IMG/VR virus record: IMGVR_UViG_3300025770_000004
Span: 1-64,000 of that record
Source of the DNA: a virus
Reading direction: 5' to 3' (one strand)
DNA length: 64,000 nucleotides
Shown: piece after piece, positions 3,486 to 29,952 of the stretch
How the letters are laid out: every line of letters begins with the position of its first letter
Position numbering within the stretch: position 1 is the first letter of the stretch
Notes under the pieces: model-generated
Databases searched by the model: none
Told to the model about the DNA's origin: nothing
What the model saw: only the letters and a program-made list of their open reading frames with translations
Program-made: the position numbers and the translations under genes

Positions 3486-3489
3486 TCAA

Positions 3490-4148: not shown

Positions 4149-4170
4149 GGAGATTGTATATTTAATGATT

Positions 4171-6490: not shown

Positions 6491-6494
6491 AATC

Positions 6495-6508: not shown

Positions 6509-6522
6509 TAAATATGATTTTC

Positions 6523-6645: not shown

Positions 6646-6670
6646 ATTAGGTTCTTAATTATATTATCCG

Positions 6671-6712: not shown

Positions 6713-6732
6713 ACGGAAAAGTAAAGAGATTA

Positions 6733-7203: not shown

Positions 7204-7269
7204 GTGTTATAGTTTATTTTATATAACTCTATATATTAATATAAAAAATTACAAAATAACGTACAGATA

Positions 7270-7301
7270 TTTGTATATTCACTATATTATATGTATCTTA
7301 G
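7270..7301 (+). promoter_or_regulatory. early promoter before the 7329 gene
   Basis: TTTG 7270-7273, 20-base spacer, TATCTTAG 7294-7301. The spacing is identical to the tRNA and 10610 promoters. Confidence 0.6.
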
Positions 7302-7328
7302 CACATCACAAAATCATAATGAGTAAAA

Positions 7329-7481
7329 ATGGAATTGGAAAAAGCAATTGAGTGGGCCAATTATCAAGGTTCATTATATTTAGTATATTATGTTATAAAA
7401 TGGAATGATGAATATTGTGTTGTCTCACATAATCATATCAAACGACATCCTAATACTAAGTGGGTTTATAAGACACAATAA
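7329..7481 (+). CDS. small protein, unknown (50 aa)
   Basis: ATG 7329 opens a 50-residue frame (MELEKAIEWANYQGS...) rich in Trp and Tyr and ending TKWVYKTQ. It follows a well-formed promoter by about 28 bases and an A-rich leader GAGTAAAA. Composition is protein-like; no family recognised. Confidence 0.5.
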   Translation: MELEKAIEWANYQGSLYLVYYVIKWNDEYCVVSHNHIKRHPNTKWVYKTQ

Positions 7482-7538
7482 AAGAAAATAATAAATATTA
7501 CAGAATTACACACGTATTTTTGTAGTAAAAGAAAAACA

Positions 7539-7832
7539 ATGATGAAATTTAGATTATACATACTACCAATTATTGATAAACTACTCTTGACTCCATTAAA
7601 AGAACTTAACGTAGATTCTCGTTACTTTAACTATAAATCAATAACTAAACATATACACAAGACTATGGCAAAGACAATTACTTATAACCACCCAATCTCA
7701 AGAAAGACAATAACTGATACGGTTATTGCAGAAGACTTACTTTTCTATACTGTAAATCGAAATCACTGGCATAGAGTTGAGCCGCTCCAGGTTCTTAAAA
7801 GTCAAGTGATCTCATCAAATTCAAAAAACTAA
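7539..7832 (+). CDS. small protein, unknown (97 or 55 aa)
   Basis: The frame is open from ATG 7539, but a second in-frame ATG at 7665 is preceded by AAGACT, the same hexamer that precedes the next gene (7837), so a 55-residue product starting MAKTITYNHPISRK may be the main form. A TATTTTTG element (7515-7522) precedes 7539. Both forms end QVISSNSKN. No family recognised. Confidence 0.5.
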   Translation: MMKFRLYILPIIDKLLLTPLKELNVDSRYFNYKSITKHIHKTMAKTITYNHPISRKTITDTVIAEDLLFYTVNRNHWHRVEPLQVLKSQVISSNSKN

Positions 7833-7836
7833 GACT

Positions 7837-8085
7837 ATGGCGGATCGAGCAACATTACTAACAAAAGAACTTTCTTACAACAAATCATCTAACACATTTG
7901 TTGGCGAAGCATCTGAACTAAAGCTTAACCAAGTAAGTCTTATTTCTTACATCATTTACAATCCAACAACTCAAATGAGTCAATACTTCAATTTTGACAA
8001 AACAGATTTGAATAACGATTCAGAAGTCATGGGTTGGAGATACCGATCACATCAAGGCACTAACTTACTAATCATAAACGACTAG
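7837..8085 (+). CDS. small protein, unknown (82 aa)
   Basis: Starts five bases after the previous stop behind AACTAAGACT. The product mixes polar and aromatic residues (SYIIYNPTTQMSQYFNFDKTD) and looks like a compact beta-rich domain. No family recognised. It ends in TAG, one of several TAG stops that argue against stop-codon reassignment. Confidence 0.55.
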   Translation: MADRATLLTKELSYNKSSNTFVGEASELKLNQVSLISYIIYNPTTQMSQYFNFDKTDLNNDSEVMGWRYRSHQGTNLLIIND

Positions 8086-8158
8086 TCATGGCAAACAATA
8101 ATATCCTTATATTTGTAATTAAACCAAAACACAGATGAATAAAATACTTTATATTTAA

Positions 8159-8323
8159 ATGAAATTAATAGAATTAGTAATGAGAGTAGGTGAGATGTGC
8201 CCTGGATGTATATTAGTAATCAGTGATAAGCAATATTACAATGAAGATGGATCATTCACTATCGAGAGAGGTGGTAAGAAACTTATTCTAAAGAAGAACC
8301 TATTTAAACCATATAAATTGTAA
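8159..8323 (+). CDS. small CxxC protein, unknown (54 aa)
   Basis: ATG 8159 opens MKLIELVMRVGEMCPGCILV..., with a single CPGC pair and a basic end KKNLFKPYKL. A TATATTTG box lies about 40 bases upstream. The last 60 bases recur in degraded form at 10196-10255, which shows the gene belongs to a family duplicated in this region. Confidence 0.5.
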   Translation: MKLIELVMRVGEMCPGCILVISDKQYYNEDGSFTIERGGKKLILKKNLFKPYKL

Positions 8324-8428
8324 TGATGAGGAACGTGAAGAGGTAATAACAAACTTTTTTAATTGTGGACCTGCAGCAAGCATTGTTGGTGATAGGTAAG
8401 TGTGAGTTAACTATAAAATATATATTAA

Positions 8429-8617
8429 ATGATAACAGAAAAAGAAGCAGATAATTGGATAACTAAAAATAAGGATAGACACTGGAATGTTCCTAAAATG
8501 ATGGTAGAGTTTGCCAACGATAAAGTAAAAGAGGTTGTAAAGGAAATACACTCTCAGACTAAAGATAAAGACAAGCCTCTTACACCCGAATGGATAGGTT
8601 TTAAGAGTTATCTATAA
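8429..8617 (+). CDS. small protein, unknown (62 aa)
   Basis: The product is highly charged and helical (MITEKEADNWITKNKDRHWN...) with no recognised motif. The 105 bases before it hold no convincing gene. Downstream lies the abnormal tRNA-like locus. Confidence 0.5.
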   Translation: MITEKEADNWITKNKDRHWNVPKMMVEFANDKVKEVVKEIHSQTKDKDKPLTPEWIGFKSYL

Positions 8618-8636
8618 CGGTTTGAATATGAATAGT

Positions 8637-8717
8637 AGCGGTTTGGGTGTGGTGTGGTTCGATTCCACAAAGCTATATGCTAAAGGCACTACGTAGGTTC
8701 GACTCCTACAACCGCTA
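8637..8717 (+). tRNA. tRNA-like locus lacking a D-arm (degenerate or atypical)
   Basis: The ends form a perfect acceptor, AGCGGTT with AACCGCT plus discriminator A, and GTAGG-TTCGACT-CCTAC is a perfect T-arm. Between them TGTGG-TTCGATT-CCACA is a perfect 5-bp/7-nt hairpin. If that is the anticodon arm, the anticodon would be CGA (Ser), but only nine bases are left for the D-arm. The remaining AAGCTATATGCT stretch could be a long variable arm. It may be a decayed tRNA or a fusion of two T-arms. Confidence 0.4.
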
Positions 8718-8825
8718 TTATTTATATTTATTGTTATGTGCTTTTTTAATTGCATCATAACGTAATAGTAGAACACGTTTTAATGTGGTTTAAAATTAGT
8801 TATGAATTAAAACAAAACAAAGATG

Positions 8826-9035
8826 ATGAGTAAAGAAGATAATAACTACATAGTATTTGCGGAAGATTCAACTGCTATGATGCAAGAGGCATTAATACAA
8901 CAGAGCAATCCATTAACAAAGGAACGTGCTATTGAGTTTGCAGAAAGAATTAAAGATAGAGATAATTTATTTTGTGTTACTATTCTGAAAAGAGTTAGTA
9001 AAAAAGAATTAAACAAAAACAAAGAAGATGAATAG
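8826..9035 (+). CDS. small protein, unknown (69 aa)
   Basis: Starts MSKEDNNYIVF after AAAACAAAACAAAGATG; an ATG three bases earlier is possible. Helical, charged, ending KKELNKNKEDE, the junction-coded tail that overlaps the next start. No family recognised. Confidence 0.58.
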   Translation: MSKEDNNYIVFAEDSTAMMQEALIQQSNPLTKERAIEFAERIKDRDNLFCVTILKRVSKKELNKNKEDE

Positions 9036-9219
9036 ATGTCTTATACTGCTATTGGTGTTTCTGTCTTTACAAAGCTATGGACAGATGTACCGATGGCAGA
9101 TGGACGAGGGAGATTTAAAAGTCTTTACCAAAGAACAATTCAAAACCCTAAGTCAATCTGGATTAGTTAATGGTGATATGACTCTGAAAGTACAAAAAAT
9201 GAAAGATGATGAAAGATAA
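9028..9219 (+). CDS. small exported protein (63 aa)
   Basis: Residues 1-19 (MNRCLILLLVFLSLQSYGQ) form a flavobacterial-style signal peptide ending SYGQ. The mature part is about 44 residues, acidic then basic, without motif. It starts inside the preceding gene's end. Likely periplasmic or surface exposed; role unknown. Confidence 0.6.
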   Translation: MNRCLILLLVFLSLQSYGQMYRWQMDEGDLKVFTKEQFKTLSQSGLVNGDMTLKVQKMKDDER

Positions 9220-9225
9220 AATGAT

Positions 9226-9396
9226 ATGAAAGCTATAACTAACATATTAACGGATATTTTTCTTATTATTACTATATTAGTGTGTGGATTACCTACATTA
9301 GTACTAGCAATAGTATTTTATTACCTTATTATTAAGGATATAGATTGGAATAAAGAAATCCAAACACGTCAGGGACGGTGCAATGCAAGATTATAA
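9226..9396 (+). CDS. small two-span membrane protein (56 aa)
   Basis: MKAITNILTDIFLII... contains a long hydrophobic stretch (residues 9-36) broken by a Gly-Leu-Pro turn, followed by an acidic/basic tail. Probably one long or two short membrane segments. It follows the exported gene by six bases, so the two may act together at the envelope. Confidence 0.5.
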   Translation: MKAITNILTDIFLIITILVCGLPTLVLAIVFYYLIIKDIDWNKEIQTRQGRCNARL

Positions 9397-9476
9397 CAAG
9401 GGTAGGATTTGCGAAAATTGTAAATAAAAGCAATACTTTTGGTATTACATCCAATACATCAACTGTTAAAGGAAAT

Positions 9477-9527
9477 GATTATATGGTGCTTATCTAAAAA
9501 ATTGGATATAAAAAACACCATATAATC
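9477..9527 (+). terminator. hairpin, probable terminator
   Basis: A perfect 12-bp inverted repeat, GATTATATGGTG (9477-9488) with CACCATATAATC (9516-9527), encloses an A-rich loop containing a further TATC/GATA pairing. It separates the 9226 gene from the 9576 promoter. Confidence 0.5.
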
Positions 9528-9532
9528 AATAT

Positions 9533-9548
9533 ATTATCCGTATCTTGT
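9533..9548 (+). promoter_or_regulatory. promoter candidate for the 9576 gene
   Basis: ATTATCCGTATCTTGT shares the ATTATCCG-TATCTTT core with the elements at 6663 and 10473. No good TTTG box lies 20 bases upstream. Confidence 0.4.
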
Positions 9549-9575
9549 GATATTGTATAACCCAAAAACAAACAT

Positions 9576-9908
9576 ATGAAAAATATTATATTAACAATTG
9601 TACTGATACTAAGCTTTAATCTAGGCGCACAAGACTCCTACCAACCTTTAATGTTCATCGAACCATTAGAACCCATCGAATTAAATCTAAACACATCATA
9701 TGGATATCCTGAGGAATCTAATATACCAATTGGTGTTGGAATGATGTTAGGTGGTGCTACATTCATTGTTGCTGGATTACTTACACCACCAAGTTATGTA
9801 GGTGGATCAACAACCGAAATGAAACCATTTTTTCAACAAGCAAAGATATGGCCAATTTTAACAGGAGCATTGGTGTTCACAGGTGGAATAGTAATTTCAA
9901 TTAGATAA
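9576..9908 (+). CDS. exported/membrane protein (110 aa)
   Basis: Signal peptide at residues 1-18 ending NLGAQ, a Pro/Glu-rich linker, then two hydrophobic segments (about 50-68 and 92-109) separated by a polar loop. It would sit in the inner membrane with an exported N-terminal domain, or be an outer-membrane-associated small protein. It has its own promoter. Function unknown. Confidence 0.6.
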   Translation: MKNIILTIVLILSFNLGAQDSYQPLMFIEPLEPIELNLNTSYGYPEESNIPIGVGMMLGGATFIVAGLLTPPSYVGGSTTEMKPFFQQAKIWPILTGALVFTGGIVISIR

Positions 9909-9936
9909 TAAAAAAACTTATAAATAATATAGAGAT

Positions 9937-10212
9937 ATGATTAACAGTACTAAAGAATGGGATTTTATGGATAACAAAGAAAAAAAATGTTCTATATGTT
10001 TATCAACATATGAAGGATATGGTAACAATGCAGAACCTCTTAACAAAGGAAGATGCTGTGATGAATGTAATCTTAAAGTAATATTAGCAAGAATTGAATT
10101 ATTAAACCAAAGCGAATGGAAATGTTCTTATGGTAAATCTTGTGAATGTAACAGTGATGTAGAAAAGTCTGAATGTGATTTAGCTTACAAAACAAAGGTG
10201 GTCAGAAGATGA
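9937..10212 (+). CDS. conserved small zinc-ribbon protein
   Basis: Contains KKCSICLSTYEGYGNNAEPLNKGRCCDECN: CxxC at about 17-20 and CCDEC at about 43-47, a four-Cys zinc ribbon common in small phage and bacterial proteins of unknown function. A second in-frame ATG at 9967 (MDNKEK) is a plausible start nearer the domain. The last codons run into a degraded copy of the 3' end of the 8159 gene. Confidence 0.65.
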   Translation: MINSTKEWDFMDNKEKKCSICLSTYEGYGNNAEPLNKGRCCDECNLKVILARIELLNQSEWKCSYGKSCECNSDVEKSECDLAYKTKVVRR

Positions 10213-10249
10213 TATTAAAGAAAAGTTTATTCAAACAATATAAATGGAA

Positions 10250-10384
10250 ATGATGTGTGATTTATGTATAATGTTTATGGGTTGGTTATTGGGTATGTCG
10301 ATATTTATAATATTCGCGAAGCCAATTATAAAAGGATTAGAAAAAATAGTAGGGATTAAACCCTTAGATAAATGGGATAAATGA
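10250..10384 (+). CDS. small membrane protein (44 aa)
   Basis: MMCDLCIMFMGWLLGM... gives one hydrophobic segment (about residues 5-23) and a basic C-terminal helix ending DKWDK. It follows the degraded repeat and overlaps the next short frame by ATGA. Moderate support from the overlap. Confidence 0.4.
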   Translation: MMCDLCIMFMGWLLGMSIFIIFAKPIIKGLEKIVGIKPLDKWDK

Positions 10385-10506
10385 AATTAACATCAGGAGA
10401 ATTCGTATTATATTATCTTAGATACTTAACTAAGTGGAATAAAACAGCTTCATTACTTGTATATGTCAAATATTATCCGTATATTTACATGATGCCTTTA
10501 TTATAA
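10381..10506 (+). CDS. possible 41-residue peptide
   Basis: Begins in an ATGA overlap (MKLTSGEFVLYYLRY). Its last third is coded by the repeated promoter element at 10456-10487, so translation is doubtful. Confidence 0.22.
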   Translation: MKLTSGEFVLYYLRYLTKWNKTASLLVYVKYYPYIYMMPLL

Positions 10507-10516
10507 TATAATAAAA
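10456..10516 (+). promoter_or_regulatory. promoter plus AT palindrome (second copy)
   Basis: CTTG-20-TATATTTA (10456-10487), then ACATGATGCCTTT and the palindrome TTTATTATAATATAATAAA. The upstream half matches 6523-6550 and the downstream half matches 6663-6690, so it combines both elements of the 6.5-kb region. Confidence 0.45.
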
Positions 10517-10537
10517 GTACAGAAAAACACACATATT

Positions 10538-10569
10538 TTTGTTAATTATAATAATTTATTGTATCTTTA
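10538..10569 (+). promoter_or_regulatory. strong promoter of the 10610 gene
   Basis: TTTG 10538-10541, 20-base spacer, TATCTTTA 10562-10569; the clearest example of the class. Transcription would start about 30-35 bases before ATG 10610. Confidence 0.7.
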
Positions 10570-10609
10570 CGAGGATTAAAGAAATATAAACAATTTAAAA
10601 TATAACACA

Positions 10610-10831
10610 ATGGCCTCAAAAACAAAAGCAACCACAATCGGAAATTACATCACTAAAGTAAATAACTACGACATCAGACAAAAAGTGTCTTATAAAAAGG
10701 CTGAAGTAGGCAGAGGGAACAAAGGTAGACAAGTTGGATCTTCTGAGTATGTTGTTTGTCGTGGAAGAAAAGTAATCAAAGCAGGTATTAAAAGTTTAGC
10801 TGAAGCTACGGCTGTGACTAACGCACAATAA
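10610..10831 (+). CDS. small basic protein with own promoter and terminator (73 aa)
   Basis: MASKTKATTIGNYITKV... is Lys/Arg/Ser-rich with a central SYKKAEVGRGNKGRQVGSSEY and an Ala-rich end. It is a complete single-gene unit: best-consensus promoter, A-rich leader AAAATATAACACA, coding region, then a 20-bp terminator stem. That layout suggests strong early expression. It could bind nucleic acid; no family recognised. Confidence 0.7.
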   Translation: MASKTKATTIGNYITKVNNYDIRQKVSYKKAEVGRGNKGRQVGSSEYVVCRGRKVIKAGIKSLAEATAVTNAQ

Positions 10832-10836
10832 TAATT

Positions 10837-10893
10837 AACTTCACTTGGTAGTTTTATTTATAGCAGAAGATATTAAAACTACCAAGTGAAGTT
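10837..10893 (+). terminator. perfect 20-bp terminator stem
   Basis: AACTTCACTTGGTAGTTTTA (10837-10856) is exactly complementary to 10874-10893, with a 17-base loop. It begins six bases after the stop of the 10610 gene. The stem is A/T-flanked and could work on both strands. Confidence 0.75.
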
Positions 10894-10948
10894 TATGTGC
10901 CATAAATTACAGAAAACCACAGAGTGGACTCCAACCTGCTTATATAAT

Positions 10949-11065
10949 TTAGAAATATACAGAAATCCACACGGAATTTTGTATAAGTCCAATATAAATT
11001 AAGTTTAATAAAATACCTCTCAATGAGCTTATACCATTATCCTTAAATATTATTCCTCTTGCCAT
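10949..11065 (-). pseudogene. truncated copy of the adhesin 5' end (38 aa)
   Basis: Starts MARGIIFKDNGIS, nearly identical to the first residues of the 3490-4083 adhesin, then diverges into an unrelated short tail and stops. Similarity continues upstream through the shared promoter region (to about 11130). It is a remnant of a duplication that also placed the promoter before tRNA-Gln. Confidence 0.65.
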
Positions 11066-11098
11066 TTTATATAGTTTTTTTATTAATGTATATATTAA

Positions 11099-11130
11099 CT
11101 TGATATATTAATATAGATTCCGTATCTTTA
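11099..11130 (+). promoter_or_regulatory. promoter of tRNA-Gln
   Basis: CTTG 11099-11102, 20-base spacer, TATCTTTA 11123-11130, 37 bases before the tRNA. It is homologous to 4117-4148. Confidence 0.65.
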
Positions 11131-11167
11131 TGGAATAGAAAGAATAGTAAAAGGGATTATTAAATCC

Positions 11168-11240
11168 TGTCCCATGGTGTAACTGGCAACACGTCTGTTT
11201 TTGGTACAGAAGAGTCTAGGTTCGAGCCCTAGTGGGACAA
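11168..11240 (+). tRNA. tRNA-Gln (anticodon TTG)
   Basis: Acceptor TGTCCCA/TGGGACA, anticodon stem TCTGT/ACAGA around TTTTGGT giving TTG, T-arm CTAGG-TTCGAGC-CCTAG, discriminator A. CCA is not encoded. It reads CAA, the favoured Gln codon in this AT-rich genome. Confidence 0.93.
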
Positions 11241-11279
11241 CAAAACACATAACTTACATCAAAGTAAACCAAATACTAA

Positions 11280-11546
11280 ATGGATACAAAACAAAAATAC
11301 GTAAGACTAAAAGAATATAACCAGATTATAATCTTTCACACATGCACCGAACACTCCACTTTTAGATATCTGAATCCTATATCAGCAGGGTTCTGTTATG
11401 TACATAGTGATAAAGTATCTTGCTTTGGGAAAAGTATCTCACTTAACATAGAAGGAATGGAAGATGATTCATATATAGCTACTAAACAAATATTCGGCTG
11501 GGAAGCCGCAGATAAATTCAACAATCAAAAAAGAGGTACAAAATAA
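11280..11546 (+). CDS. small protein, unknown (88 aa)
   Basis: Follows tRNA-Gln by 40 bases with an A-rich leader (AACCAAATACTAA), so it is probably on the same transcript. It has three Cys and several His/Tyr (HTCTEHSTF, AGFCYVHSDKVSCF) but no clear metal site. No family recognised. Confidence 0.55.
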   Translation: MDTKQKYVRLKEYNQIIIFHTCTEHSTFRYLNPISAGFCYVHSDKVSCFGKSISLNIEGMEDDSYIATKQIFGWEAADKFNNQKRGTK

Positions 11547-11549
11547 TAA

Positions 11550-11984
11550 CTACACTCCTAACGTCTCCAATTTATCCTGCCTATCCAAGATAACAGAAGT
11601 ATAATATATCTCAACCGGTAACTCCATAGTACCCTCCTTCTGTATTTCAATATCAACATCTGAATTTAAACCAAAATATTCATACCACCTCAAATCTAAT
11701 TTGTATTCACCCGTTAAAAAACACTTGGCGTTATATTTGAAACGAGAACCTCCAGGAGGTGCTAGTAAAATATCAGTACTAACAGAATTTGCATAGGACT
11801 TTCTCCGTCTGGTAAACTTACTGTTGGCGTCAAAAGAAATGTTTGACCAAGTAGCCTTTACACTCAGTACATGATTAGAAAATTTTGGCGCCAAGATAGT
11901 AGCCATTCTATTGTAATTACTACAAGTAAATTCAACACTTATAACCTCAGTACGCACTGTTAATTCATTCTTCATATCTTTCAA
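11550..11984 (-). CDS. hypothetical protein (144 aa)
   Basis: Convergent with the preceding gene, with four bases between stops. The product alternates hydrophobic and polar residues through most of its length, which suggests a beta-sandwich, with a basic FTRRRKSYANS loop. Start may be ATG 11984 or 11975 (MKNELTV). The 228 bases upstream (11985-12212) hold no gene I can support; a GTCTG/CAGAC inverted repeat is the only structure seen. Confidence 0.55.
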   Translation of the reverse strand: MKDMKNELTVRTEVISVEFTCSNYNRMATILAPKFSNHVLSVKATWSNISFDANSKFTRRRKSYANSVSTDILLAPPGGSRFKYNAKCFLTGEYKLDLRWYEYFGLNSDVDIEIQKEGTMELPVEIYYTSVILDRQDKLETLGV

Positions 11985-12212
11985 ATTTTATCTCAAAAAA
12001 GTACCCGTCTGTGATCTAATGGGTGTACGGTGTTCAGACGATGGCTGCATATACACGTAAGTACCTAAAAAGGTAAATCAAGAGAGACTGATAGGATCTG
12101 ATAGGATCAACTCAAAATCTTACAGAAATACAACCATTATTCTGTACTAAGTTCACTATGTATCAATTTACTTCAATTTACTTTTCTTAATTGATTCTTT
12201 CTTTTTACTTAA

Positions 12213-12374
12213 CTATTCACCATATATTTTAATTATAGATGTTTTCCTTTTATTAGGTTTGTACCTTATAAATGTTTGTGTCAGGTAATTCGAATTTGTG
12301 CTCTTTATCTGCATTATCGCCAAGTCTTTCTCTTTAGTGCTTACTCCTGGACTTTTAAACTTCATTATATTCAT
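12213..12374 (-). CDS. small paralogous protein 3 of 3 (53 aa, possibly damaged)
   Basis: Ends YKPNKRKTSIIKIYGE, which matches the end of its upstream neighbour (KPNKTIIRMRKILKIYDE). A second frame over 12240-12300 reads KEHKFELPD, like the C-terminus of the 50908 protein, with a 22-base exact match. The N-terminal part may thus be shifted in frame. Confidence 0.35.
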   Translation of the reverse strand: MNIMKFKSPGVSTKEKDLAIMQIKSTNSNYLTQTFIRYKPNKRKTSIIKIYGE

Positions 12375-12400
12375 TTAACTTCTTATCACTTTCTATTCTA

Positions 12401-12523
12401 TCACTCATCATATATCTTTAGAATCTTACGCATTCTTATTATCGTTTTATTAGGTTTATTATCTTTCCAAGGTAATTCATAATCATAAGGATTATTATCA
12501 TTCCAAGTGCTTTGTTTATTCAT
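12401..12523 (-). CDS. small paralogous protein 2 of 3 (40 aa)
   Basis: MNKQSTWNDNNPYDYELPWK..., followed by KPNKTIIRMRK. The PWxxNKxxIRM segment is shared with the 12520 product (SPWSGNKIRMAK). Its start overlaps the stop of that gene by ATGA, so the two are translationally coupled. Confidence 0.45.
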   Translation of the reverse strand: MNKQSTWNDNNPYDYELPWKDNKPNKTIIRMRKILKIYDE

Positions 12524-12687
12524 AAGTTTTCATATGTTGTTAGTAATGTTTTAGGTTCTTTGGTTATTGTTAATTTAAAGATGTTATTAAGTTTAGCCAT
12601 TCTAATCTTATTTCCGCTCCAAGGAGATTTATAATTTAGTCCTGTTACTGTTCTCATAGGGTATAAATGTTTAGCTGTTATTTTCAT
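12520..12687 (-). CDS. small paralogous protein 1 of 3 (55 aa)
   Basis: MKITAKHLYPMRTVTGLNY..., then SPWSGNKIRMAK, basic throughout. First gene of a small minus-strand operon divergent from the 12803 gene; the 115 bases between them hold promoters for both directions. Confidence 0.45.
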   Translation of the reverse strand: MKITAKHLYPMRTVTGLNYKSPWSGNKIRMAKLNNIFKLTITKEPKTLLTTYENL

Positions 12688-12742
12688 ATAATTTATATGT
12701 TGTAAGTTCTTGTAAGTTTGTAAAATTGTTCTTACTTAGAGT

Positions 12743-12773
12743 TGTTTATTGAAAAATAAACACTATATTTGTG
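12743..12773 (+). promoter_or_regulatory. promoter of the 12803 gene
   Basis: GTTG, 19-base spacer, TATATTTG (12766-12773). It lies inside the frame that stays open from TTG 12749, which shows the true start must be downstream, at ATG 12803. Confidence 0.6.
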
Positions 12774-12802
12774 ATATTAAAAATCAATTAATCGTATTAC
12801 AT

Positions 12803-14506
12803 ATGTTAAAATTTTCAAAGAAGTTTCGGGAGTTACTACAAAGGGTATCGTATAATAAGGTATCTAAAAATCTTTTGCTTATAGAAAGGTTATCTGGAGA
12901 ACCTGACCACAGACATCCTGGGCTTGCAGCAGTTGGAATGGCGTTTGATAGTTTTGATTATAACTTTATAAGTATAGGTGATACGAATAGGTTAGTTACT
13001 TTTACTCCATCTGATAAGGTAGAAAAGATACTTAGTGATTTACCTAAGGTATATGGTGTTAGTTCGATTAGGAATTTAACTCATAGTAATTCTAATAATA
13101 CTATTTTCGGTTTAATAGGATATGATAAGAGTGTTAACGATTATTGGTATCCGGAGCCATCGTGTGATTGTATAGATAGTGTTCTTATGGATGGTGGGTT
13201 ATCGTGTGGTTGTGGTATTGGAGATAAGGGTAAAATTATAAATGAGGTTGTAAGTCCTTCTACTGATAAGGTTTATGTTTTATTCAAGTGTTTAGATACT
13301 GGTAGGTTATCGGTAGTAAATAAAAAGGCTATTATTATTTCTGACAATAGTGATGTTATTTTCACGGTGAATAGGAATTCGATAAAGGTGGGTAGGTTAG
13401 TTAGGCTTATACTTACTACGGCGGGTATAAAGTTTATTACTAAGGATATCGAGGACTTTGTAAATTTATATAAGTCTTCATATGATTTTTCTACTAATAA
13501 GGATATACAGTTTAATATAGTTACTGGTGATAAAATTGCTTTTTGGTATAATGGAGATAATTATGTAGGTGGTGGAGGTCAGTTAAGTAATTCTTGTATG
13601 GCTAATAAGCCAAAGGAATTTTTTAACATCTATTCTAAGAACAGTTGTTGTTCGATGGTAATTTTATATAGTGATGATGGAATTTTGAAACAAGGTTCAT
13701 ATGAATCTGATAGAATCAAGGGTAGGGCGTTATTATGGGATGTAAAGTATAATGGGCGTATGGTAAAGTTTTTAGATAGAATCTACTGTAATGTTGATAG
13801 TGATATAGAGTTATTCAAGACTTATGCTAAGAATAAGGGTTGGTATCGTAAGGTAGAGCAAACGATGTATCCAGAGGCTTGTGTTACTTTAGATGGAAAT
13901 GAGATTGATGATAGGTTTGAGGTTGAATTAGACACGGTTGATATGGATTACTTTCCTTATATGGATACGATGTGTTTTTGTATAAATGAGGATGGTTGTT
14001 TAATTATTACGAATGATAAAGAGTTGGGTCATACAAGGGAGTTTAGGTGTACGAATGGTACATACTTAAAGATAAGGGATAATAGGGAAGTTGGATATGG
14101 TGGGATTGATGCGGATTTTTTATATCCGGAGTATAATGAAGACTTCGACCCTGATCCGGAGTATAATGAAGACTTCGACCCTGATGAAGTTGAGGATGAA
14201 GTTGAGATGCCAATAGATCAGATGGATGAAGGTGAGTGTGTTGAGCAATCAATCGGACGTATAAGAAGGGAAAGTAATGTATCAGAGGTTCAGTCTATCC
14301 TTCATATCGATAGGTTAACGGCAGGGGACTTGGATAGGGTTCGTGAACTTATAATAGAGTCTAGTAGAGTACCAAGGAGATACTTTGATAATATACCTCG
14401 TGAGGTTGATCCTACACCGCCGCCTTCTGAGCCGGTTTTTAATTTAGATGATGATCAATCAGATGTTAACTTTGGATATGGTGATGGAGATGATCTTCCT
14501 TTTTAG
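12803..14506 (+). CDS. large conserved phage protein, unknown (567 aa)
   Basis: ATG 12803 (MLKFSKKFRELLQ) is preferred because the promoter overlaps the upstream part of the open frame. Signature segments are KVGRLVRLIL, ITKDIEDFVNLYKSSYD, IAFWYNGDNY, GQLSNSCMANK and a GWY near residue 350, which together match a conserved large phage protein of unknown function. The C-terminal 150 residues are acidic and contain an exact 30-base tandem repeat coding for EYNEDFDPDP twice (about 14147-14206). Codon choice is more G-rich than in neighbouring genes. Placement next to its own promoter suggests early expression. Confidence 0.75.
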   Translation: MLKFSKKFRELLQRVSYNKVSKNLLLIERLSGEPDHRHPGLAAVGMAFDSFDYNFISIGDTNRLVTFTPSDKVEKILSDLPKVYGVSSIRNLTHSNSNNTIFGLIGYDKSVNDYWYPEPSCDCIDSVLMDGGLSCGCGIGDKGKIINEVVSPSTDKVYVLFKCLDTGRLSVVNKKAIIISDNSDVIFTVNRNSIKVGRLVRLILTTAGIKFITKDIEDFVNLYKSSYDFSTNKDIQFNIVTGDKIAFWYNGDNYVGGGGQLSNSCMANKPKEFFNIYSKNSCCSMVILYSDDGILKQGSYESDRIKGRALLWDVKYNGRMVKFLDRIYCNVDSDIELFKTYAKNKGWYRKVEQTMYPEACVTLDGNEIDDRFEVELDTVDMDYFPYMDTMCFCINEDGCLIITNDKELGHTREFRCTNGTYLKIRDNREVGYGGIDADFLYPEYNEDFDPDPEYNEDFDPDEVEDEVEMPIDQMDEGECVEQSIGRIRRESNVSEVQSILHIDRLTAGDLDRVRELIIESSRVPRRYFDNIPREVDPTPPPSEPVFNLDDDQSDVNFGYGDGDDLPF

Positions 14507-14670
14507 GACTGTGGTCGGCATGCGGGTAATCTCAAAAAAAATTTTAAACGTCTTCGACTAAGGTCAAAAAATTTTCTTCGATACTCAGAATAACTTATAA
14601 CAAAGTAGAACTATATAAATATAACTAAAACTAATAATAGAGCTAATCAAAAAGATAATAATAAAATCAA

Positions 14671-15324
14671 ATGAGTAAATTTCATTATAAGGTAGGGTCA
14701 GTAGAAACTAGCACGCCCTGGATAAGGCCTACGTATGATACGTTAAAAACATACTTGATAGATATCCGAGATAATACTGATATCATGGATAAATTTGAGA
14801 TTTATATACATGGTAAGTGTTTATTTGATTGGCATACGTGGGATGTAGATTTGTACTTATACGGACCTTGTAATGATATGTATTCACTAGAACATGATAT
14901 GGATACAATGTATAAAATGGCATTTGATAAGCGTCTTTTATTAGACCTTTCGTTATATGAAAACCATCCAAGAGTACGAGCCTATACTAAACAACAAAAA
15001 GTTGAGTTTACAAGAGATTATGAAATCGGTATGATAAAGCATAATACTAGAGTGAAAAAGGATTTTAGAAATCCAGAAAGGCTGATTGATTGGGAAAATA
15101 AATATACAGAAAAGTTCAAAGCATATCCAGTAGGTCCAACGGCTGAGATGGTCACAGATCATTTGGTAAGACTTTACTACCCTGCAAATACAGTGCCTTA
15201 TCCAAAAAAGATAATAGAACTAGAACATAAACTAATTCAAGGGGCTCCTATCAATGCGAATATATTCATAGATACAGATATTAATTGGTGGTGTGCAAAC
15301 AGAGACAAGATTATAGGTGATTAA
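14671..15324 (+). CDS. hypothetical protein, weak nucleotidyltransferase-like motif (217 aa)
   Basis: A 217-residue protein. The segment YIHGKCLFDWHTWDVDLYLYGP resembles the G-K...D-V-D-L core of the nucleotidyltransferase fold, but the usual GS pair is missing, so the assignment is tentative. The rest is basic and helical. It has its own spacer of 160 bases containing two CTTCGA-adjacent AAAAATTTT runs. Confidence 0.6.
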   Translation: MSKFHYKVGSVETSTPWIRPTYDTLKTYLIDIRDNTDIMDKFEIYIHGKCLFDWHTWDVDLYLYGPCNDMYSLEHDMDTMYKMAFDKRLLLDLSLYENHPRVRAYTKQQKVEFTRDYEIGMIKHNTRVKKDFRNPERLIDWENKYTEKFKAYPVGPTAEMVTDHLVRLYYPANTVPYPKKIIELEHKLIQGAPINANIFIDTDINWWCANRDKIIGD

Positions 15325-15402
15325 ATGAATTGAAACAATTAAGAAACCATAAGTTAAAATAAAGTATAACATATAAATAAAACATATAATACAATAACTA
15401 AG

Positions 15403-15948
15403 ATGAAATCATTAGAATCTAAGCCGATGTTTAATAGAAATGGTAGACATTACCCAACAATTTGGAGGAACAATGCAGTAAAGATTGTCGTGGATGATTA
15501 TGCAAAATTTCATAATTTAAAAAACGACTTAAAAGATATTTGTTTAGAAGTTACTGATGATGGTATAAATGCTCATATTTTTCATACGCCACTAATTCCA
15601 GAAGATTCTAAAGCTGAGCGATGGACAGGATCAAGACTTTATATAGAATTTCAATACAAATCGAATATATCTACACAAAGGGTATTTGATAATGATTATA
15701 AATTTATGAATGAGGACTTTTTAGATGAGGTTGTTGAAAGAATAACTTTATTTATGTGTGGTAATGGTTATACCACTAAAGTAATAAAGACTTATGATAA
15801 ATGTAGTTCACATCATAACAATATAAGAAATGTTCGTGAATCCATTTGGTCTAGTAAAAAATGGTTTTTATCCTTGAAAAGGATTATAAATAAACGCAAG
15901 GGTCGTGTATATATTACTCGATTAGAATTTTTTAAAATAATAAACTAG
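15403..15948 (+). CDS. hypothetical protein related to leader family (181 aa)
   Basis: MKSLESKPMFNRNGR... has at most a degenerate leader, but the segment HNLKNDLKDICLEVTDDGI matches the DI-LE-DDG helix that follows the leader in the 25063 and 26040 products. It may be a relative that lacks the cleavable leader. The C-terminus is strongly basic (KKWFLSLKRIINKRKGR). Confidence 0.58.
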   Translation: MKSLESKPMFNRNGRHYPTIWRNNAVKIVVDDYAKFHNLKNDLKDICLEVTDDGINAHIFHTPLIPEDSKAERWTGSRLYIEFQYKSNISTQRVFDNDYKFMNEDFLDEVVERITLFMCGNGYTTKVIKTYDKCSSHHNNIRNVRESIWSSKKWFLSLKRIINKRKGRVYITRLEFFKIIN

Positions 15949-15953
15949 TGAAT

Positions 15954-16397
15954 ATGAATAAAGAGGAAATATTAGATATTTTAGATAAAGAAGGAGATAA
16001 TCTCAAATTTGAATATTTACATATCAAATGTGAGATGATAAGGAATCAGATGAAAAATTGGTGTGGATATATTTTCATACCAAACTGGCATCCACTTTTC
16101 GATAATGATGAAGCAGAGTCTATACCTTGTCATGGTAGTGTTACTTATTGTGAGGTGGTTGATAATGAATTGAAAATAGGATTTGATACTGCTCATTCTA
16201 ATGACTTTTCTCCTTATTATATACTAGATGAATATTTATCCACGCGGTCTCCATTTGAAATGACTGGTACTTATAGAGATAAAGATTATGTTATTAACGA
16301 AATACACACAATGGTGGATTATATATATGATAATTATCCAGAAACAAAGAGATTGATTAGAGAATCAAAATTAAAAGAATTGGGTATAAAGGATTAA
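15954..16397 (+). CDS. conserved phage protein, unknown (HGSVTY/GFDTAHSND motif)
   Basis: I use ATG 15954; a GTG at 15948 overlaps the previous stop. CGYIFIPNWHPLF, HGSVTYCEV and IGFDTAHSNDFSP occur in order, the pattern of a common bacterial/phage family in which the middle motif is usually HGGLTF and the last GFDCAHxxD. Conserved His/Asp suggest an active or metal site, but no activity is known to me. The C-terminal helix VDYIYDNYPETKRL is also conserved. Confidence 0.72.
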   Translation: MNKEEILDILDKEGDNLKFEYLHIKCEMIRNQMKNWCGYIFIPNWHPLFDNDEAESIPCHGSVTYCEVVDNELKIGFDTAHSNDFSPYYILDEYLSTRSPFEMTGTYRDKDYVINEIHTMVDYIYDNYPETKRLIRESKLKELGIKD

Positions 16398-16466
16398 TTT
16401 CATTAAATCACTTTAACATAGTAAAAAGTGTTAAACTAACGAGGCATAAGAATAGTAAATATATAG

Positions 16467-16616
16467 ATGTATAGTATTGAAGATATAAGGGGTTTCAAAT
16501 TATTAATAGAGTATCCAGGTTGTCGTGAAAAGGTTGGTTATTTTGAATCAAATATAAATGGGGATTTTATTAATTACCCAAAGATATGGAGGCCAGTTTT
16601 CACTAGAAGGTATTAA
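16467..16616 (+). CDS. small conserved phage protein (49 aa)
   Basis: MYSIEDIRGFKLLIEYPGCREKVG... with NYPKIWRPVF near the end. The EYPGC...KVG...YPxxW pattern is familiar from short hypothetical phage proteins. It overlaps an alternative upstream extension of the next gene, which I therefore reject. Confidence 0.55.
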   Translation: MYSIEDIRGFKLLIEYPGCREKVGYFESNINGDFINYPKIWRPVFTRRY

Positions 16617-16644
16617 GAGACCAAAAATTAAAAAAGTTGGGAAT

Positions 16645-16908
16645 ATGATAATAGCTAAGTATATTTTTAATAAAGAATGTATTATTCTAGAAAGGGGAGA
16701 TAGTATTAGTATGTTAACTAAATACTATGATATAGTTACTGAACATGATGATGGTGATTATATCATCAGTTTAGATCACAGACCTAATTTATTAGCAGTT
16801 GAATATGCAAATATAAAAGGTGAAAATCCAGGATTTGTATTAGTTTTAAGTGATGTTATCTTAGATGCTATGTATATTAAAAATAATATTAACAAATCTG
16901 ATTATTAA
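16645..16908 (+). CDS. small protein, unknown (87 aa)
   Basis: The frame is open from 16558, but ATG 16645 (MIIAKYIFNKECI) avoids overlapping the conserved 16467 product. Beta-rich, acidic, with no recognised motif. Followed directly by a TTATTAATATATATG element. Confidence 0.5.
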   Translation: MIIAKYIFNKECIILERGDSISMLTKYYDIVTEHDDGDYIISLDHRPNLLAVEYANIKGENPGFVLVLSDVILDAMYIKNNINKSDY

Positions 16909-24380: not shown

Positions 24381-25025
24381 TTATAACCCAATACTTATAA
24401 GTTTATCTTCTCTTATATGTGTTCTCATCATAGATTCTAGTTTTTCAAAACGGTTTAATTCCTTTTTAAGTAATCCTTTTATTTTAATATTATGATTCTC
24501 ATCTGTATAAGCGTAACGCTTTTTAGCAATTAAATAAAAATAATCTACATCAACAATTTTATATGGTAGTTCTAACTCATCTATTAGTTTTTTAACATCT
24601 TGGCTTAACCCATTTAAAATAATACTATCAGTGTCTATATAAATAATTTCATTATTATTTTTGTATAAAAGTTCTTTGTAAAAATGGTGTAAGTAATCAC
24701 ACACAATATTAGCACCATTTTGATTTCTTCGAAAAACCCTACTCCATATCGAGTTGAAAACGTATCTCCAATTAGACATATCAGATTCTTCTACATCTTC
24801 CTTAATACTTAATAAATATTTTATTGATTCTATATTTACCTTCTCATCAGGTATAAGTCCTTCATCATCCATCTGTATCAAAACACGATTATATAAGTGT
24901 GTGAAGTCTATACGGACTACATCACTATGTATCTTTAATAGGTTGTATCTGGGGTTATTAACATAACAAGTTATGTGGCCTTGTGTTTTATTTAGATTAA
25001 TTTCATCAAGATATCTTTTTACCAT
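24381..25025 (-). CDS. mini family-B DNA polymerase palm protein (214 aa)
   Basis: All three polymerase motifs occur in order in a protein one quarter of normal length: motif A VRIDFTHLYN (Asp 40), a motif B relative RYVFNSIWS (87-95, for KxxxNSxYG), motif C IIYIDTDSI (131-134), then AKKRYAY (167-173) and IKGLLKK as in the KKRY/KG region. There is no room for the exonuclease, fingers are minimal and the thumb is almost absent. It starts at ATG 25025, divergent from the 25063 gene, so it is not just the tail of a split polymerase. Could be a specialised small polymerase or a captured palm with another role. Confidence 0.75.
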   Translation of the reverse strand: MVKRYLDEINLNKTQGHITCYVNNPRYNLLKIHSDVVRIDFTHLYNRVLIQMDDEGLIPDEKVNIESIKYLLSIKEDVEESDMSNWRYVFNSIWSRVFRRNQNGANIVCDYLHHFYKELLYKNNNEIIYIDTDSIILNGLSQDVKKLIDELELPYKIVDVDYFYLIAKKRYAYTDENHNIKIKGLLKKELNRFEKLESMMRTHIREDKLISIGL

Positions 25026-25062: not shown

Positions 25063-26043
25063 ATGAAATACTTAAAAAGTTTTAATGAAAGTGTTGGGAT
25101 AAGTGCAGATGAAATGGATAATATCAATGATATCTGTTTGGATCTTATTGATTTAGGGCTACAATATCGTATAATATCATCAACAATGGATGGTGAATCT
25201 TTAACAGGTCATTTGTTTGTTGATTACAATCAACAAACTTCAATGCATTCTAAATCAGGTATTTATAATGATATGATGATTGAGATATATGATAAGTATG
25301 ATATTTCTTCTGGTGCTGGGAGTGACTCTGGTGATATAAAAATAACAGAAGAATTGATAGATATTATTATGAGACTTGATGAATATTTAGATAGTGATTT
25401 AAGGTTTGGAGCATTTTATCAAAACTCCGCTTTTAACGTTGATTATACAGAAATGGGTGTGTGTGATTTAGATATAAATCTAGAAAAACTAGAGAATATT
25501 TCTGAATTCGATAGTGGTTATTTTAAGATATCACAAATAGATATAAAAACAAAAAAAACAAGGCCTCCGATTAGAATTTCATCGGGATATTACACAGAGA
25601 GTAAAGTAGAATCACCTCAGTTTGGTCTGGTAAGATTTACCGAACGGAAGCAACATTTGTTTTCGGACACCCACTTAAATCAAAACTTCCGGAACACCGA
25701 GAAATCTGAGTTAAGAAGAGATCTTGATGATATTTGTATTGAGTTTATTGATAATGATGTTGATTATGAGATTAAAGAGGGTTATTTCATACCATTCTAT
25801 ATTAATATAGATACAATTAATATGAGGGATGAGGTTGATAGAAGTGGATCACTTGATTTACCAGAATGGTTCGGTGAAGTAGTTAGAAGACTAGATGCTT
25901 ATATGACAACTCTTGGTTATGAGTTATTCATCTCGGTCGCAACGGCATCCTTTCAAAATAAATGGGCAGATATGAAATCAATAGATGAGTTAATGAATTG
26001 CCATTATCACAGCTTCAATATTAGATTAAGATTTAAGATATGA
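25063..26043 (+). CDS. leader-bearing protein with two copies of the family domain (326 aa)
   Basis: Leader MKYLKSFNES (FNE cut site). Domain copy 1 begins MDNINDICLDLIDLGLQYRI; copy 2, after a charged linker at about 195-220, begins RRDLDDICIEFIDNDVDYEI. Both continue to a helix like RLDEYLDSD/RLDAYMTTLGYELF. It is thus an internal duplication of the domain found in single copy in 52340 and 56914. Overlaps the next gene by ATGA. Confidence 0.72.
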   Translation: MKYLKSFNESVGISADEMDNINDICLDLIDLGLQYRIISSTMDGESLTGHLFVDYNQQTSMHSKSGIYNDMMIEIYDKYDISSGAGSDSGDIKITEELIDIIMRLDEYLDSDLRFGAFYQNSAFNVDYTEMGVCDLDINLEKLENISEFDSGYFKISQIDIKTKKTRPPIRISSGYYTESKVESPQFGLVRFTERKQHLFSDTHLNQNFRNTEKSELRRDLDDICIEFIDNDVDYEIKEGYFIPFYINIDTINMRDEVDRSGSLDLPEWFGEVVRRLDAYMTTLGYELFISVATASFQNKWADMKSIDELMNCHYHSFNIRLRFKI

Positions 26044-27122
26044 AATATTTAGAAACATATAAATTATTTGAGAAATCAAAATATCCTCAATTTCCTCAAG
26101 CAATCCTCTTGGATTTATTTGATGATATCAAAGATATTTTATTAGAAGTGGAGGATTTAGGTCTTTTCATAAATAAGAAAATTACACGATCGAATCGTGG
26201 GGTTGATAGAATATTTTTTCAGATAACACCAACCAAGGATGGTAGTATGTCTGGGAAATTTGAAATAACAAAAGAACTATCTGATTCTTTATATAGAGTT
26301 TCACAATATGTTAAGTCAAAGGGTTGTAATTTTTGCACATATGAGATACATCTAAGTGGTAATGAATGGTACCAATTAAGTAGTTCAGATATTTTGGATT
26401 ATATTGGGACAGAAGTTTGGTATATTGATATAAACGTAACTGATTGTAGTCTAAATGAGTCTATTACAAATATAGATAATAATGATGTCGGTGGTGATGT
26501 TGAGAGTATGTTGTATGATATGGAAGATTTGGGATATGGTTATATGGTCACCCCAAGTAGGGAAAGAAGTATGCCATCCAATGGATTTACAAAATATGGT
26601 ATAGGTGTACTTCTTTATAAAAGAGGACAAAATACTATTCTATTAGATGATGTCGATTATAGAATCAACCAAATAAAGGATATAATTAAATATGATGTTG
26701 AAAACATTACAATTAGGTTTAGCCAACATAACAAAAGAGGGACATTTAGTTACCCACCTCATCCAGAGAAATTAAAAAGCTTAGATGATTTCAATATAAA
26801 GGGTTTATTAGATTTTTTAGATAAACATTTTCCTAACGGAATAAACAATAACACTTCACACAAATCGAGAGAAGAAGCAAGAAACCCATCTTTTGATCCA
26901 AATGGATCAATCCCAATAGAATTTCAAGTACTTGATAATGGTATGAATGAGTGGAAAGAAGAATTTTCATATGTTGGTAAGAAAGATGGTGAATATAAAT
27001 TTAAATCTGAAATGCAGTTTGATGATTTTGAAATATCTATATCGGAATCAGATTTAGAGACTGATGTTAGACCAGTCGTAAAAGAAATAAGTATGAAATT
27101 TATAAATGAAGTACCTGATTAA
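26040..27122 (+). CDS. leader-bearing protein with two copies of the family domain (360 aa)
   Basis: Leader MKYLETYKLFEK (LFE). Copy 1: DDIKDILLEVEDLGLFI; copy 2: GGDVESMLYDMEDLGYGYMV. SLYRVSQYVKSKGCNF corresponds to the RL-YL-S-GY helix of relatives. A C-terminal segment of about 90 residues (SREEARNPSFDPNG, SYVGKKDGEYKFKSE) is unique to this member. Probably delivered with the preceding and following gene products. Confidence 0.72.
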   Translation: MKYLETYKLFEKSKYPQFPQAILLDLFDDIKDILLEVEDLGLFINKKITRSNRGVDRIFFQITPTKDGSMSGKFEITKELSDSLYRVSQYVKSKGCNFCTYEIHLSGNEWYQLSSSDILDYIGTEVWYIDINVTDCSLNESITNIDNNDVGGDVESMLYDMEDLGYGYMVTPSRERSMPSNGFTKYGIGVLLYKRGQNTILLDDVDYRINQIKDIIKYDVENITIRFSQHNKRGTFSYPPHPEKLKSLDDFNIKGLLDFLDKHFPNGINNNTSHKSREEARNPSFDPNGSIPIEFQVLDNGMNEWKEEFSYVGKKDGEYKFKSEMQFDDFEISISESDLETDVRPVVKEISMKFINEVPD

Positions 27123-27588
27123 ATATAAAATATTTGAGGATATAACCAAAGAGGAAGAGTCAATTATAATTGATGACCTTAATGATATATTATGCGATGC
27201 TCGTGATCAAAATCTAGAGGCTACTGTAACTTCTGAAAGAAGGGGTGAAGTTATTGGTGATAGCTTAAGAGTTGAAATACACGGTATTTTTAATGAGGAT
27301 CACGTACAAGATTTTTCCGTACCAACATTTAGATTTGGTGATGTTTTCGATGTTATATACAGATCAAATGAATTCTTAAAGACATATTCATATATAATAC
27401 AACCAATATTTGCTATTAAAGTTCATGTGGGTGGTGGTAAACGTAAAGATGATGATAGTCAATTCATAAAAATAGATGATTTAGAAAGGTACTCAAATAA
27501 AGAATGTTCTCATGTATCACTTTATTGGAGAATACCAATCTCTTATGAGGAAATGACTAAGCGTTTAAGAGGAAACTCGGATGATTAA
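27106..27588 (+). CDS. leader-bearing putative internal head protein (160 aa)
   Basis: Starts MKYLIKYKIFED (IFE), overlapping the end of the preceding gene by 17 bases. The family helix is IIDDLNDILCDARDQNLEAT. The C-terminus (CSHVSLYWRIPIS) is beta-rich. It runs into the convergent minus-strand gene at 27565, sharing 24 bases. Confidence 0.7.
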   Translation: MKYLIKYKIFEDITKEEESIIIDDLNDILCDARDQNLEATVTSERRGEVIGDSLRVEIHGIFNEDHVQDFSVPTFRFGDVFDVIYRSNEFLKTYSYIIQPIFAIKVHVGGGKRKDDDSQFIKIDDLERYSNKECSHVSLYWRIPISYEEMTKRLRGNSDD

Positions 27589-28054: not shown

Positions 28055-28377
28055 TCACATTCCTTTATTTTGTCTGTTACGTATTCTGTATATTGTACTG
28101 TCTTATCAAGTTCTTCAACCAGCGCATCCATATTTTTTATAATATCCGAACTAACAAAATCTAAATCATTAATCTTATTTTTTATTGATTTGTAATGTTC
28201 CGCCACGTTCTCACTAACTATGAGTAAGTCTTCGTTTAATAATAAGGTTAGCTTTTTATCTCTGCTTTCATAGGTTGATTTCCAAATTGATTCATTTTTA
28301 TCAACCTCTTTGATTAAGTATGAGATATAAATACCTTCTTTTGACGATAAGAAATCGTACATTTTAATTTTCTTCAT
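28033..28377 (-). CDS. helical small protein, unknown (114 aa)
   Basis: MKKIKMYDFLSSKEGIYI... is strongly helical with heptad-like spacing (ESIWKSTYESRDKKLTLLLNE; INDLDFVSSDIIKN), so a coiled coil is likely. Two Cys close the protein (KIKECECQD). Overlaps the downstream gene by 22 bases. Confidence 0.55.
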   Translation of the reverse strand: MKKIKMYDFLSSKEGIYISYLIKEVDKNESIWKSTYESRDKKLTLLLNEDLLIVSENVAEHYKSIKNKINDLDFVSSDIIKNMDALVEELDKTVQYTEYVTDKIKECECQDIKE

Positions 28378-28585
28378 CTAATATTTGATTTAGTTTTTTA
28401 TCTCTAACCACTGGTAAAGATTGTTTGTATAAATTTTCTACCATTTCAACTGGGTCGAATCCGGTTTGAAATTGATAGTCTGTTATATTTTCTCTTGTTA
28501 TTCCTAAATTAATACCTTTATAAATTACTTGGTGTTGTTCGTTATAAGTTATATTATCATGCATATCTTTTAGTTTAATTCTCAT
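28364..28585 (-). CDS. small protein, unknown (73 aa)
   Basis: MRIKLKDMHDNITYNEQ..., with GFDPVEMVENLYKQSLP and an acidic end LDEEN. Overlaps the downstream gene by 14 bases. A second reading frame just upstream encodes QSEQELLLRESKLEG and ends at the same ATGAGAATTAA junction, so the start region may be more complex. Confidence 0.52.
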   Translation of the reverse strand: MRIKLKDMHDNITYNEQHQVIYKGINLGITRENITDYQFQTGFDPVEMVENLYKQSLPVVRDKKLNQILDEEN

Positions 28586-28781: not shown

Positions 28782-29060
28782 TCATTCTAATATTTCTTTT
28801 ATTTTACCATCTCTTATATCAGATTTTGATATAAGTATTCGATTAAAGTGTAGAGTTTCTATAACCTCATCTACTTTCTTCCCATCACTACTTCTGCTAT
28901 ACCTACCTTGGTATATTTCCATATATTCTTTGATAAGTTTTCTAGTAGTTGTGTGGATGTACATCGCACCAAACCCTCCCTGATTTGATGATGGGTTGTC
29001 ATTTTCATGTGAAGTTAATTCATTAAGTCTTTTAAAATCTATTATATAATCCGATTCCAT
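28782..29060 (-). CDS. small protein, unknown (92 aa)
   Basis: MESDYIIDFKRLNELTSH... with a Gly-rich stretch (NQGGFGAMYIH) and a basic loop (GRYSRSSDGKK). First gene of the minus-strand series. Directly upstream is a tandem array of the octamer TATTTGTA. Confidence 0.55.
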   Translation of the reverse strand: MESDYIIDFKRLNELTSHENDNPSSNQGGFGAMYIHTTTRKLIKEYMEIYQGRYSRSSDGKKVDEVIETLHFNRILISKSDIRDGKIKEILE

Positions 29061-29400: not shown

Positions 29401-29952
29401 TTAGTTAGTTTTATATATTTGATTTATTTTAATAAGCATTTTAATACCCAATTCACTTTCTATAATAGAAAGAAAGGCTCTTGCTTCTTTTCTAGTTTCA
29501 AAAAAGAATCTTCTGGATAATGTTCTTTCTTGTTCTTGTTCATGTTCAGTACCTATTAGTCTTTTAAATTTAAGGTTTACCCTATTGATTGGTGATCCAT
29601 CTAATTCTATATCATCCTTGATAAATTTCTCATTGTTAAATATAATCATCTCAATTCTTTCGTCACTTGTGGTTGATGATTTAAACTCAACATCGATTCT
29701 AAATACTAACTCACCTTCTGGTAATGATCCAACCCCATATTCATCTTTGGTAATACCGGTGATATAATAGATATCATTATTTATATGAAATGGTCTTGGG
29801 TCAAGATAATCAACATCAACTCTTTGTTGATCATCTACATATTTCCTAATATTCTTAGCTCTTGTTGGATGTAATCCTTCTAGCTTATCAGCAGCTGATA
29901 AATATGTACTTGTTTTTAATTCAAAAAATTTATATTTTTTTAAAAATTTCAT
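29401..29952 (-). CDS. leader-bearing putative internal head protein (STYxSAA type, 183 aa)
   Basis: Leader MKFLKKYKFFEL (FFE). KTSTYLSAADKLEGLHPTR parallels the 6733 product. A beta-rich middle (VFRIDVEFKSST) is followed by EQEQERTLSRRFFFETRKEARAFL, similar in position to KTVRDAKIIIDLI of 6733. A TTTTAATATATAAG element ends only three bases before the ATG. Confidence 0.7.
   Translation of the reverse strand: MKFLKKYKFFELKTSTYLSAADKLEGLHPTRAKNIRKYVDDQQRVDVDYLDPRPFHINNDIYYITGITKDEYGVGSLPEGELVFRIDVEFKSSTTSDERIEMIIFNNEKFIKDDIELDGSPINRVNLKFKRLIGTEHEQEQERTLSRRFFFETRKEARAFLSIIESELGIKMLIKINQIYKTN

Follow-up and report, generated by a model that had tools for sequence, protein, structure and literature searches.

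Family B DNA polymerases (PolB), such as Deep Vent/Pyrococcus PolB and the T4 gp43 group, contain a palm in which motifs A, B, C and KKRY follow one another in this order, and in the characterised enzymes the motif A Asp binds the catalytic metals. The phage protein considered here has the same motifs in the same order, but it differs from this group in being a palm without exonuclease and thumb, with short fingers, a variable motif A acid and a C-terminal tail. As a short peptide common to many otherwise unrelated phage proteins, this tail resembles the capsid-targeting sequence of T4, which, however, is N-terminal and cleaved, whereas the palm tail is C-terminal. PolB modules that became inactivated are also on record, namely the C-terminal half of Pol epsilon and archaeal PolB2, the latter long considered inactivated (PMC7544198). 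With them the palm would share the derivation from PolB, the eroded catalytic residues and a role other than the original one, but these modules keep far more of the polymerase architecture, and PolB2 erodes motif C and the Exo motifs, whereas the phage palm erodes motif A (PMC7544198). Jumbo phages of group 2.2 encode a split minimal PolIII alpha (PMC7824862), which is similar in being a reduced polymerase core beside the T4-type PolB of related phages, but belongs to a different polymerase family and consists of two proteins, the palm being one (PMC7824862). In the open literature, no account of a palm-only PolB family was found. The 2020 PolB survey excluded fragments of less than 200 residues (PMC7544198), and with this cut, along with the lack of a Pfam name from annotation pipelines, palm-only proteins could easily have escaped notice.

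The DNA analysed (the window) is the whole stretch of 64,000 nucleotides corresponding to positions 1 to 64,000 of record IMGVR_UViG_3300025770_000004. The palm gene, its motifs and related features are listed in table 1. By taking into account the evidence presented below, we tentatively regard its product, with slightly less than even confidence, as a PolB-derived palm repurposed as a separate, tail-recruited accessory protein of mahaphage-type huge phages. A PolB palm that has lost exonuclease and thumb, and persists as a family whose motif A varies, would represent a rare reuse of the replicative polymerase core.

Table 1. Positions of the palm gene and its motifs, of other tailed proteins of the window and of the split replicative PolB genes of two related phages.
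Feature	Record	Position	Strand	Basis or remark
Stand-alone PolB palm gene (P0001), 214 aa, ATG start	window	24381..25025	-	ORF and homology
Motif A VRIDFTHLYN, residues 37-46, Asp40 (D/E/S in other family members)	window	24888..24917	-	alignments
Motif B RYVFNSIWS, residues 87-95, KxxxNSxYG relative	window	24741..24767	-	NS invariant in five close members
Motif C YIDTDS, residues 129-134	window	24624..24641	-	both Asp invariant in five close members
KKRY motif, residues 168-171	window	24513..24524	-	KR invariant in five close members
C-terminal tail IREDKLISIGL, also on many unrelated phage proteins	window	24384..24416	-	
Tailed protein (LDRQDKLETLGV)	window	11550..11984	-	
Tailed protein (IRESKLKELGIKD)	window	15948..16397	+	
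Tailed protein (VRDKKLNQILDEEN)	window	28364..28585	-	
Tailed protein (IRDGKIKEILE)	window	28782..29060	-	
Split replicative PolB genes	LR745206.1	233.3-234.3 kb; 130.6-131.95 kb	+; -	
Split replicative PolB genes	LR756502.1	254.3-255.3 kb; 120.5-121.9 kb	+; -	

The plus strand across the palm gene is closed by many stops. Upstream of the ATG the frame of the gene is open for just 6 codons and the nearest gene on that side begins, divergently, at 25063, 37 bases away, so that the palm gene has its own start. When compared alone, the window protein found phrog_1907 (DNA polymerase) in PHROG with a weak E of 1.6e-4, no match in Pfam, PF00136 included, and an insignificant best E of 0.31 (Pol alpha) in the PDB. 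A profile built from four family members gave Deep Vent Pol as the best match among solved structures (E 5.1e-5), and its remaining top matches were also PolB (archaeal PolBs, Pol alpha), the alignments keeping motifs A, B and C in register. Motifs A and B are separated by approximately 40 residues and KKRY is followed by 43-44 residues; thus, the protein lacks exonuclease, thumb and most of the fingers. The preliminary description is borne out: the protein is a reduced PolB palm that keeps motifs A, B, C and KKRY in this order, has lost those domains and is made from a start of its own.

Structure models of the palm were obtained from a single sequence (pLDDT 37, too low for use) and from three sequences (mean pLDDT 49, which is poor). 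The best VIA alignment of the latter placed model residues 81-186 on the palm region of the PolB 4flv (Z 3.6, 104 residues aligned, unrelated rows scoring equally), and other PolBs recurred among the weak matches, which lends the palm fold no more than supportive evidence. Foldseek with the palm model returned nothing at E<=0.001, and six of its eight top viral rows, none of them significant, were named DNA polymerase. As to a descent of the palm from the phages' own PolB, profile comparison yielded only local matches of motifs A and C, at low probability. A lead offered by the 349-aa 'DNA polymerase' of Fpv1 was dropped by considering that the enzyme of FpV4, which we take to be a congener of Fpv1, has 703 aa.

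Five close members of the family, of 208-225 aa and one per lineage, were identified by adding to the window protein those of four further huge-phage lineages: LR745206 (216 aa, 47.7% identity to the window protein; genome of 634,780 bases), LR756502 (210 aa, about 25% identity; genome of 642,428 bases), IMGVR_UViG_3300042691_036629 (208 aa, with an identical copy in 3300032050_000080) and IMGVR_UViG_3300032236_001530 (225 aa). The profile described above was built from all of these but the last. The conservation of a full-length ORF of this size in four further lineages shows that the palm ORF is not due to chance. Proteins of LR756504 (291 aa, E 2.9e-6), of Chryseobacterium phage MA9V-1 (287 aa, 'hypothetical protein' WIC41461.1, E 2.1e-5) and of the 735-kb phage LR756501 (456 aa, reached through the LR756504 member at E 5e-3) are likely, but not securely, distant relatives of the palm. 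No palm was found in viral_contigs when P0001, A1 and the two LR relatives served as queries; the two IMG/VR relatives retrieved only their own contigs and one identical copy, and genome_contigs gave none. Al-Shayeb et al. (2020, PMC7162821) reported complete, circularized genomes of 634, 636, 642 and 735 kb that belong to the Mahaphage clade and for which Bacteroidetes are the predicted hosts.

The catalytic Asp residues had initially been described as intact, and a translesion-, primer- or end-adding enzyme had been suggested. The former statement holds for the window protein, in which D40, D131, D133, NS and KKRY are all present, but not across the family. From the alignments, the motif A position is also D in LR745206 and 3300032236_001530, but it is E in 3300042691_036629, LR756504 and MA9V-1, and S in LR756502 and LR756501. 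The D-x-D of motif C is present in every family member (YIDAD in LR745206) except the MA9V-1 relative, which reads STDD, and the N of motif B is kept family-wide. The loss of the motif A Asp in part of the family indicates that polymerization is probably not the conserved function. As judged from these residues, templated polymerization is unlikely as a function common to the family, as is catalysis of any kind as the conserved one; catalysis is nevertheless possible in the lineages with the motif A Asp, and the window member itself, with its motif A, B and C residues intact, may be an active enzyme. An active minimal polymerase, i.e. a two-metal nucleotidyl transferase acting in translesion synthesis, priming or end addition with partner proteins in place of fingers and thumb, is rather unlikely: the joint presence of the motif A Asp and of DxD in three lineages would be consistent with it, but the S or E found elsewhere, the absence of a thumb to grip the primer-template and the failure to find a partner gene argue against it, so that a conserved polymerase activity of the type first suggested is not favoured.

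The window palm has in its surroundings genes for an M3 peptidase, a NADAR protein and an ECF-type sigma factor, in agreement with the earlier remark that its neighbours are unrelated to replication, and its relatives lie near D12 and C5 DNA methyltransferases in LR745206 and near UvdE and NADAR in LR756502. These surroundings look like accessory or host-interaction regions rather than replication regions. The presence of NADAR, DNA methyltransferases and UvdE at the family loci, along with the lack of conserved catalysis, would also fit an antagonist, namely a decoy palm delivered by its tail to disturb a host polymerase or replisome, or that of a competing phage. Such a decoy is an unlikely explanation, and it would not need the Asp residues of motif C, which are retained.

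The shared tail is a more unusual feature than the palm itself. The C-terminal ends of the five close palms are HIREDKLISIGL, HIREDKLIELGI, HIRNRKLDDILC, NIRERKLKELGL and EIRRRKLDNLGI, with the pattern R[DE]xKLxxLGI; I204, R205, K208 and L209 are invariant in all five, and the linker that precedes the tail is variable. Tails were counted by applying a fixed expression to the last 16 residues of each ORF, with the expectation obtained by shuffling those residues. The tail was found on 15 of 195 ORFs of the window's genome (124 kb; 0.42 after shuffling), 22 of 146 ORFs of LR745206 (85 kb; 0.36) and 39 of 161 ORFs of LR756502 (103 kb; 0.47), for a total of 76/502 versus about 1.3 expected. It is also found on 35 of 72 ORFs of 3300042691_036629, a fraction that is biased by the choice of stretches holding the motif. 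When 158 sampled tailed proteins were compared by BLAST without their last 18 residues, they fell into 142 groups, that of the palm being among the two largest. The consensus, at the extreme C-terminus, is Kx[EQ][ILV]-R-[DEN]-x-K-[LI]-x-x-[LI]-[GL]-I, and 108 of the 158 have the R at exactly 9 residues from their end. The search expression required the R, K/R and L/I, and neither the D, G, final I and upstream K nor the register. The tail codons are broadly those of the gene bodies, with common synonymous codons, and TAA, TGA and TAG are all used as stops. Codon use, the three stop codons and the fixed register indicate selection on the peptide rather than on a DNA or RNA signal, and the first two led us to reject a DNA-level signal. 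Pfam and PHROG give no match for the majority of the tailed proteins; isolated ones look like MazG, acyl carrier protein, BtpA and tautomerase. At 16616-16648 (+) of the window, RDQKLKKLGI and a stop are encoded with an in-frame stop 13 codons upstream, which is probably a frameshifted 3' gene end or an assembly error.

The DNA pattern of the tail matches many other IMG/VR contigs, several of them of 280-476 kb, and whole-record counts found it in 9 of 15 records, with none for the reversed control pattern. The tail was absent from three isolated Bacteroidota phages, as sampled in 50-kb stretches, and its exact form from the whole of LR756504, LR756501, LR756500, MA9V-1, PTm1 and MaF61. The palm relatives of LR756504 and MA9V-1 have no tail, which is therefore dispensable for some palms. 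A convergent C-terminal helix cap, with no common partner, could be envisaged by considering that the tail is short and amphipathic in appearance, and that looser variants exist, such as LRKETIEELL in LR756504. However, the fixed register with respect to the C-terminus, the strong preferences for R, K and L/I and the restriction of the tail to certain phages make this explanation quite unlikely.

In LR745206 and LR756502, both complete at about 640 kb, the replicative PolB is separate from the palm and is itself divided between two genes that lie about 100-130 kb from each other, with the palm gene far from both. The first replicative half (512-513 aa) contains the exonuclease and motif A (DFASLYP) and the second (474 aa) motif B (LNGSYG), motif C (YGDTDS or YADTDS), KKKY and the rest of the C-terminal part, including the thumb; thus, the break falls in the fingers, between motifs A and B. 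Since the two halves already hold motif A and motifs B and C with the thumb, respectively, the palm duplicates, rather than completes, the replicative PolB. Searches for a split-gene partner with PF00136, PF00476, PF07733, PF03104 and both replicative halves turned up no PolB piece close to the palm. The replicative halves were also not found in the window's 312,709-base record, which is approximately half the size of the relatives' genomes and where these searches had no positive control; the PF03104 matches in it were rejected as PolB pieces, as they look like DnaQ-type exonucleases. At 146.7-148.1 kb of this record, and in an LR745206 counterpart (stretch positions 758-2074), a protein combines a MLKKYKEFIKES peptide at its N-terminus with a 2H-phosphoesterase-like part and a DnaQ-like exonuclease, as judged by eye and from a PF03104 match. 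In LR756502, near 523.5 kb (stretch positions 1486-1635), a 49-aa ORF has motif A as its only PolB motif (KMDYTSLYSNIILSHNIMP; PF00136 at E 2.9e-4).

The palm as one piece of a split polymerase, with the other domains encoded elsewhere, might be suggested by the splitting of the relatives' replicative PolB into two distant genes, but the duplication just described and the DnaQ-type appearance of the PF03104 matches largely refute this proposal, which is very improbable. A decaying remnant of a duplicated polymerase, despite the low similarity among members, the eroding motif A and the motif-A-only ORF of LR756502, is hardly tenable and is refuted by the conservation in five lineages, down to 25% identity, of an intact ORF of similar size with motif C and tail, as anticipated by the preliminary description in arguing against simple decay.

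Other shared peptides occur in these phages. In LR756501, DPYGEExW[DE] ends seven genes just upstream of the palm relative; its DNA pattern occurs 68 times in this genome and not at all in eight other genomes or in reversed form. In the sampled LR756501 stretches it is mostly C-terminal on unrelated proteins (stretch 491881-504555, reverse complement, 1104-4914), and the palm relative holds a single DPYGEExW, which lies between its motifs A and B. Around the palm relative of LR756504, many small proteins end in a looser tail, [IL]RxxKIxxLL (stretch positions 2636-16770), that the palm relative itself does not have. In the majority of lineages, though not in every one, the palm is thus among the tagged proteins of its phage. 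No paper on the tail sequences or on a shared C-terminal motif of huge phages was found in the open literature, and DPYGEE was met there only in an unrelated yeast peptide paper; the tail, which looks like a common address label, thus seems to be undescribed.

In the repurposed-palm scheme that we tentatively prefer, the palm with its short fingers and the common C-terminal tail of its phages would make up one accessory protein. The tail would dock the palm on a hub common to many other tailed accessory proteins, where the palm may bind nucleotides or a DNA end through the DxD of motif C, the NS of motif B and KKR, such binding taking the place of processive DNA copying. More generally, and with confidence again just short of even, huge mahaphage-type phages may run a protein-addressing system, in which each genome would encode dozens of small, unrelated proteins bearing a single C-terminal address (R[DE]xKLxxLGI or, in the 735-kb phage, DPYGEExW), the PolB palm having been recruited as a non-replicative component. 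If the tail is an address, it would define a class of function-unknown proteins in the largest phages and provide a handle on their common partner, as well as a way to sort function-unknown genes.

A second class of proteins in these phages is characterized by the N-terminal sequences MKYLKxFNE or MKYLxxYKxFE. The palm protein begins with MVKRYLDE, its shared peptide being at the C-terminus, and has no N-terminal targeting peptide of the T4 capsid-targeting type. The N-terminal class and the C-terminal tail occur together in 1 of 502 ORFs, with a poor tail match, versus about 4 expected, which is only suggestive of mutual avoidance. In the window, at 25063-27588, 29401-29952 and other positions, proteins start with MKYLKSFNES, MKYLETYKLFE or MKFLKKYKFFE, similar to the targeting peptide of the T4 internal proteins.
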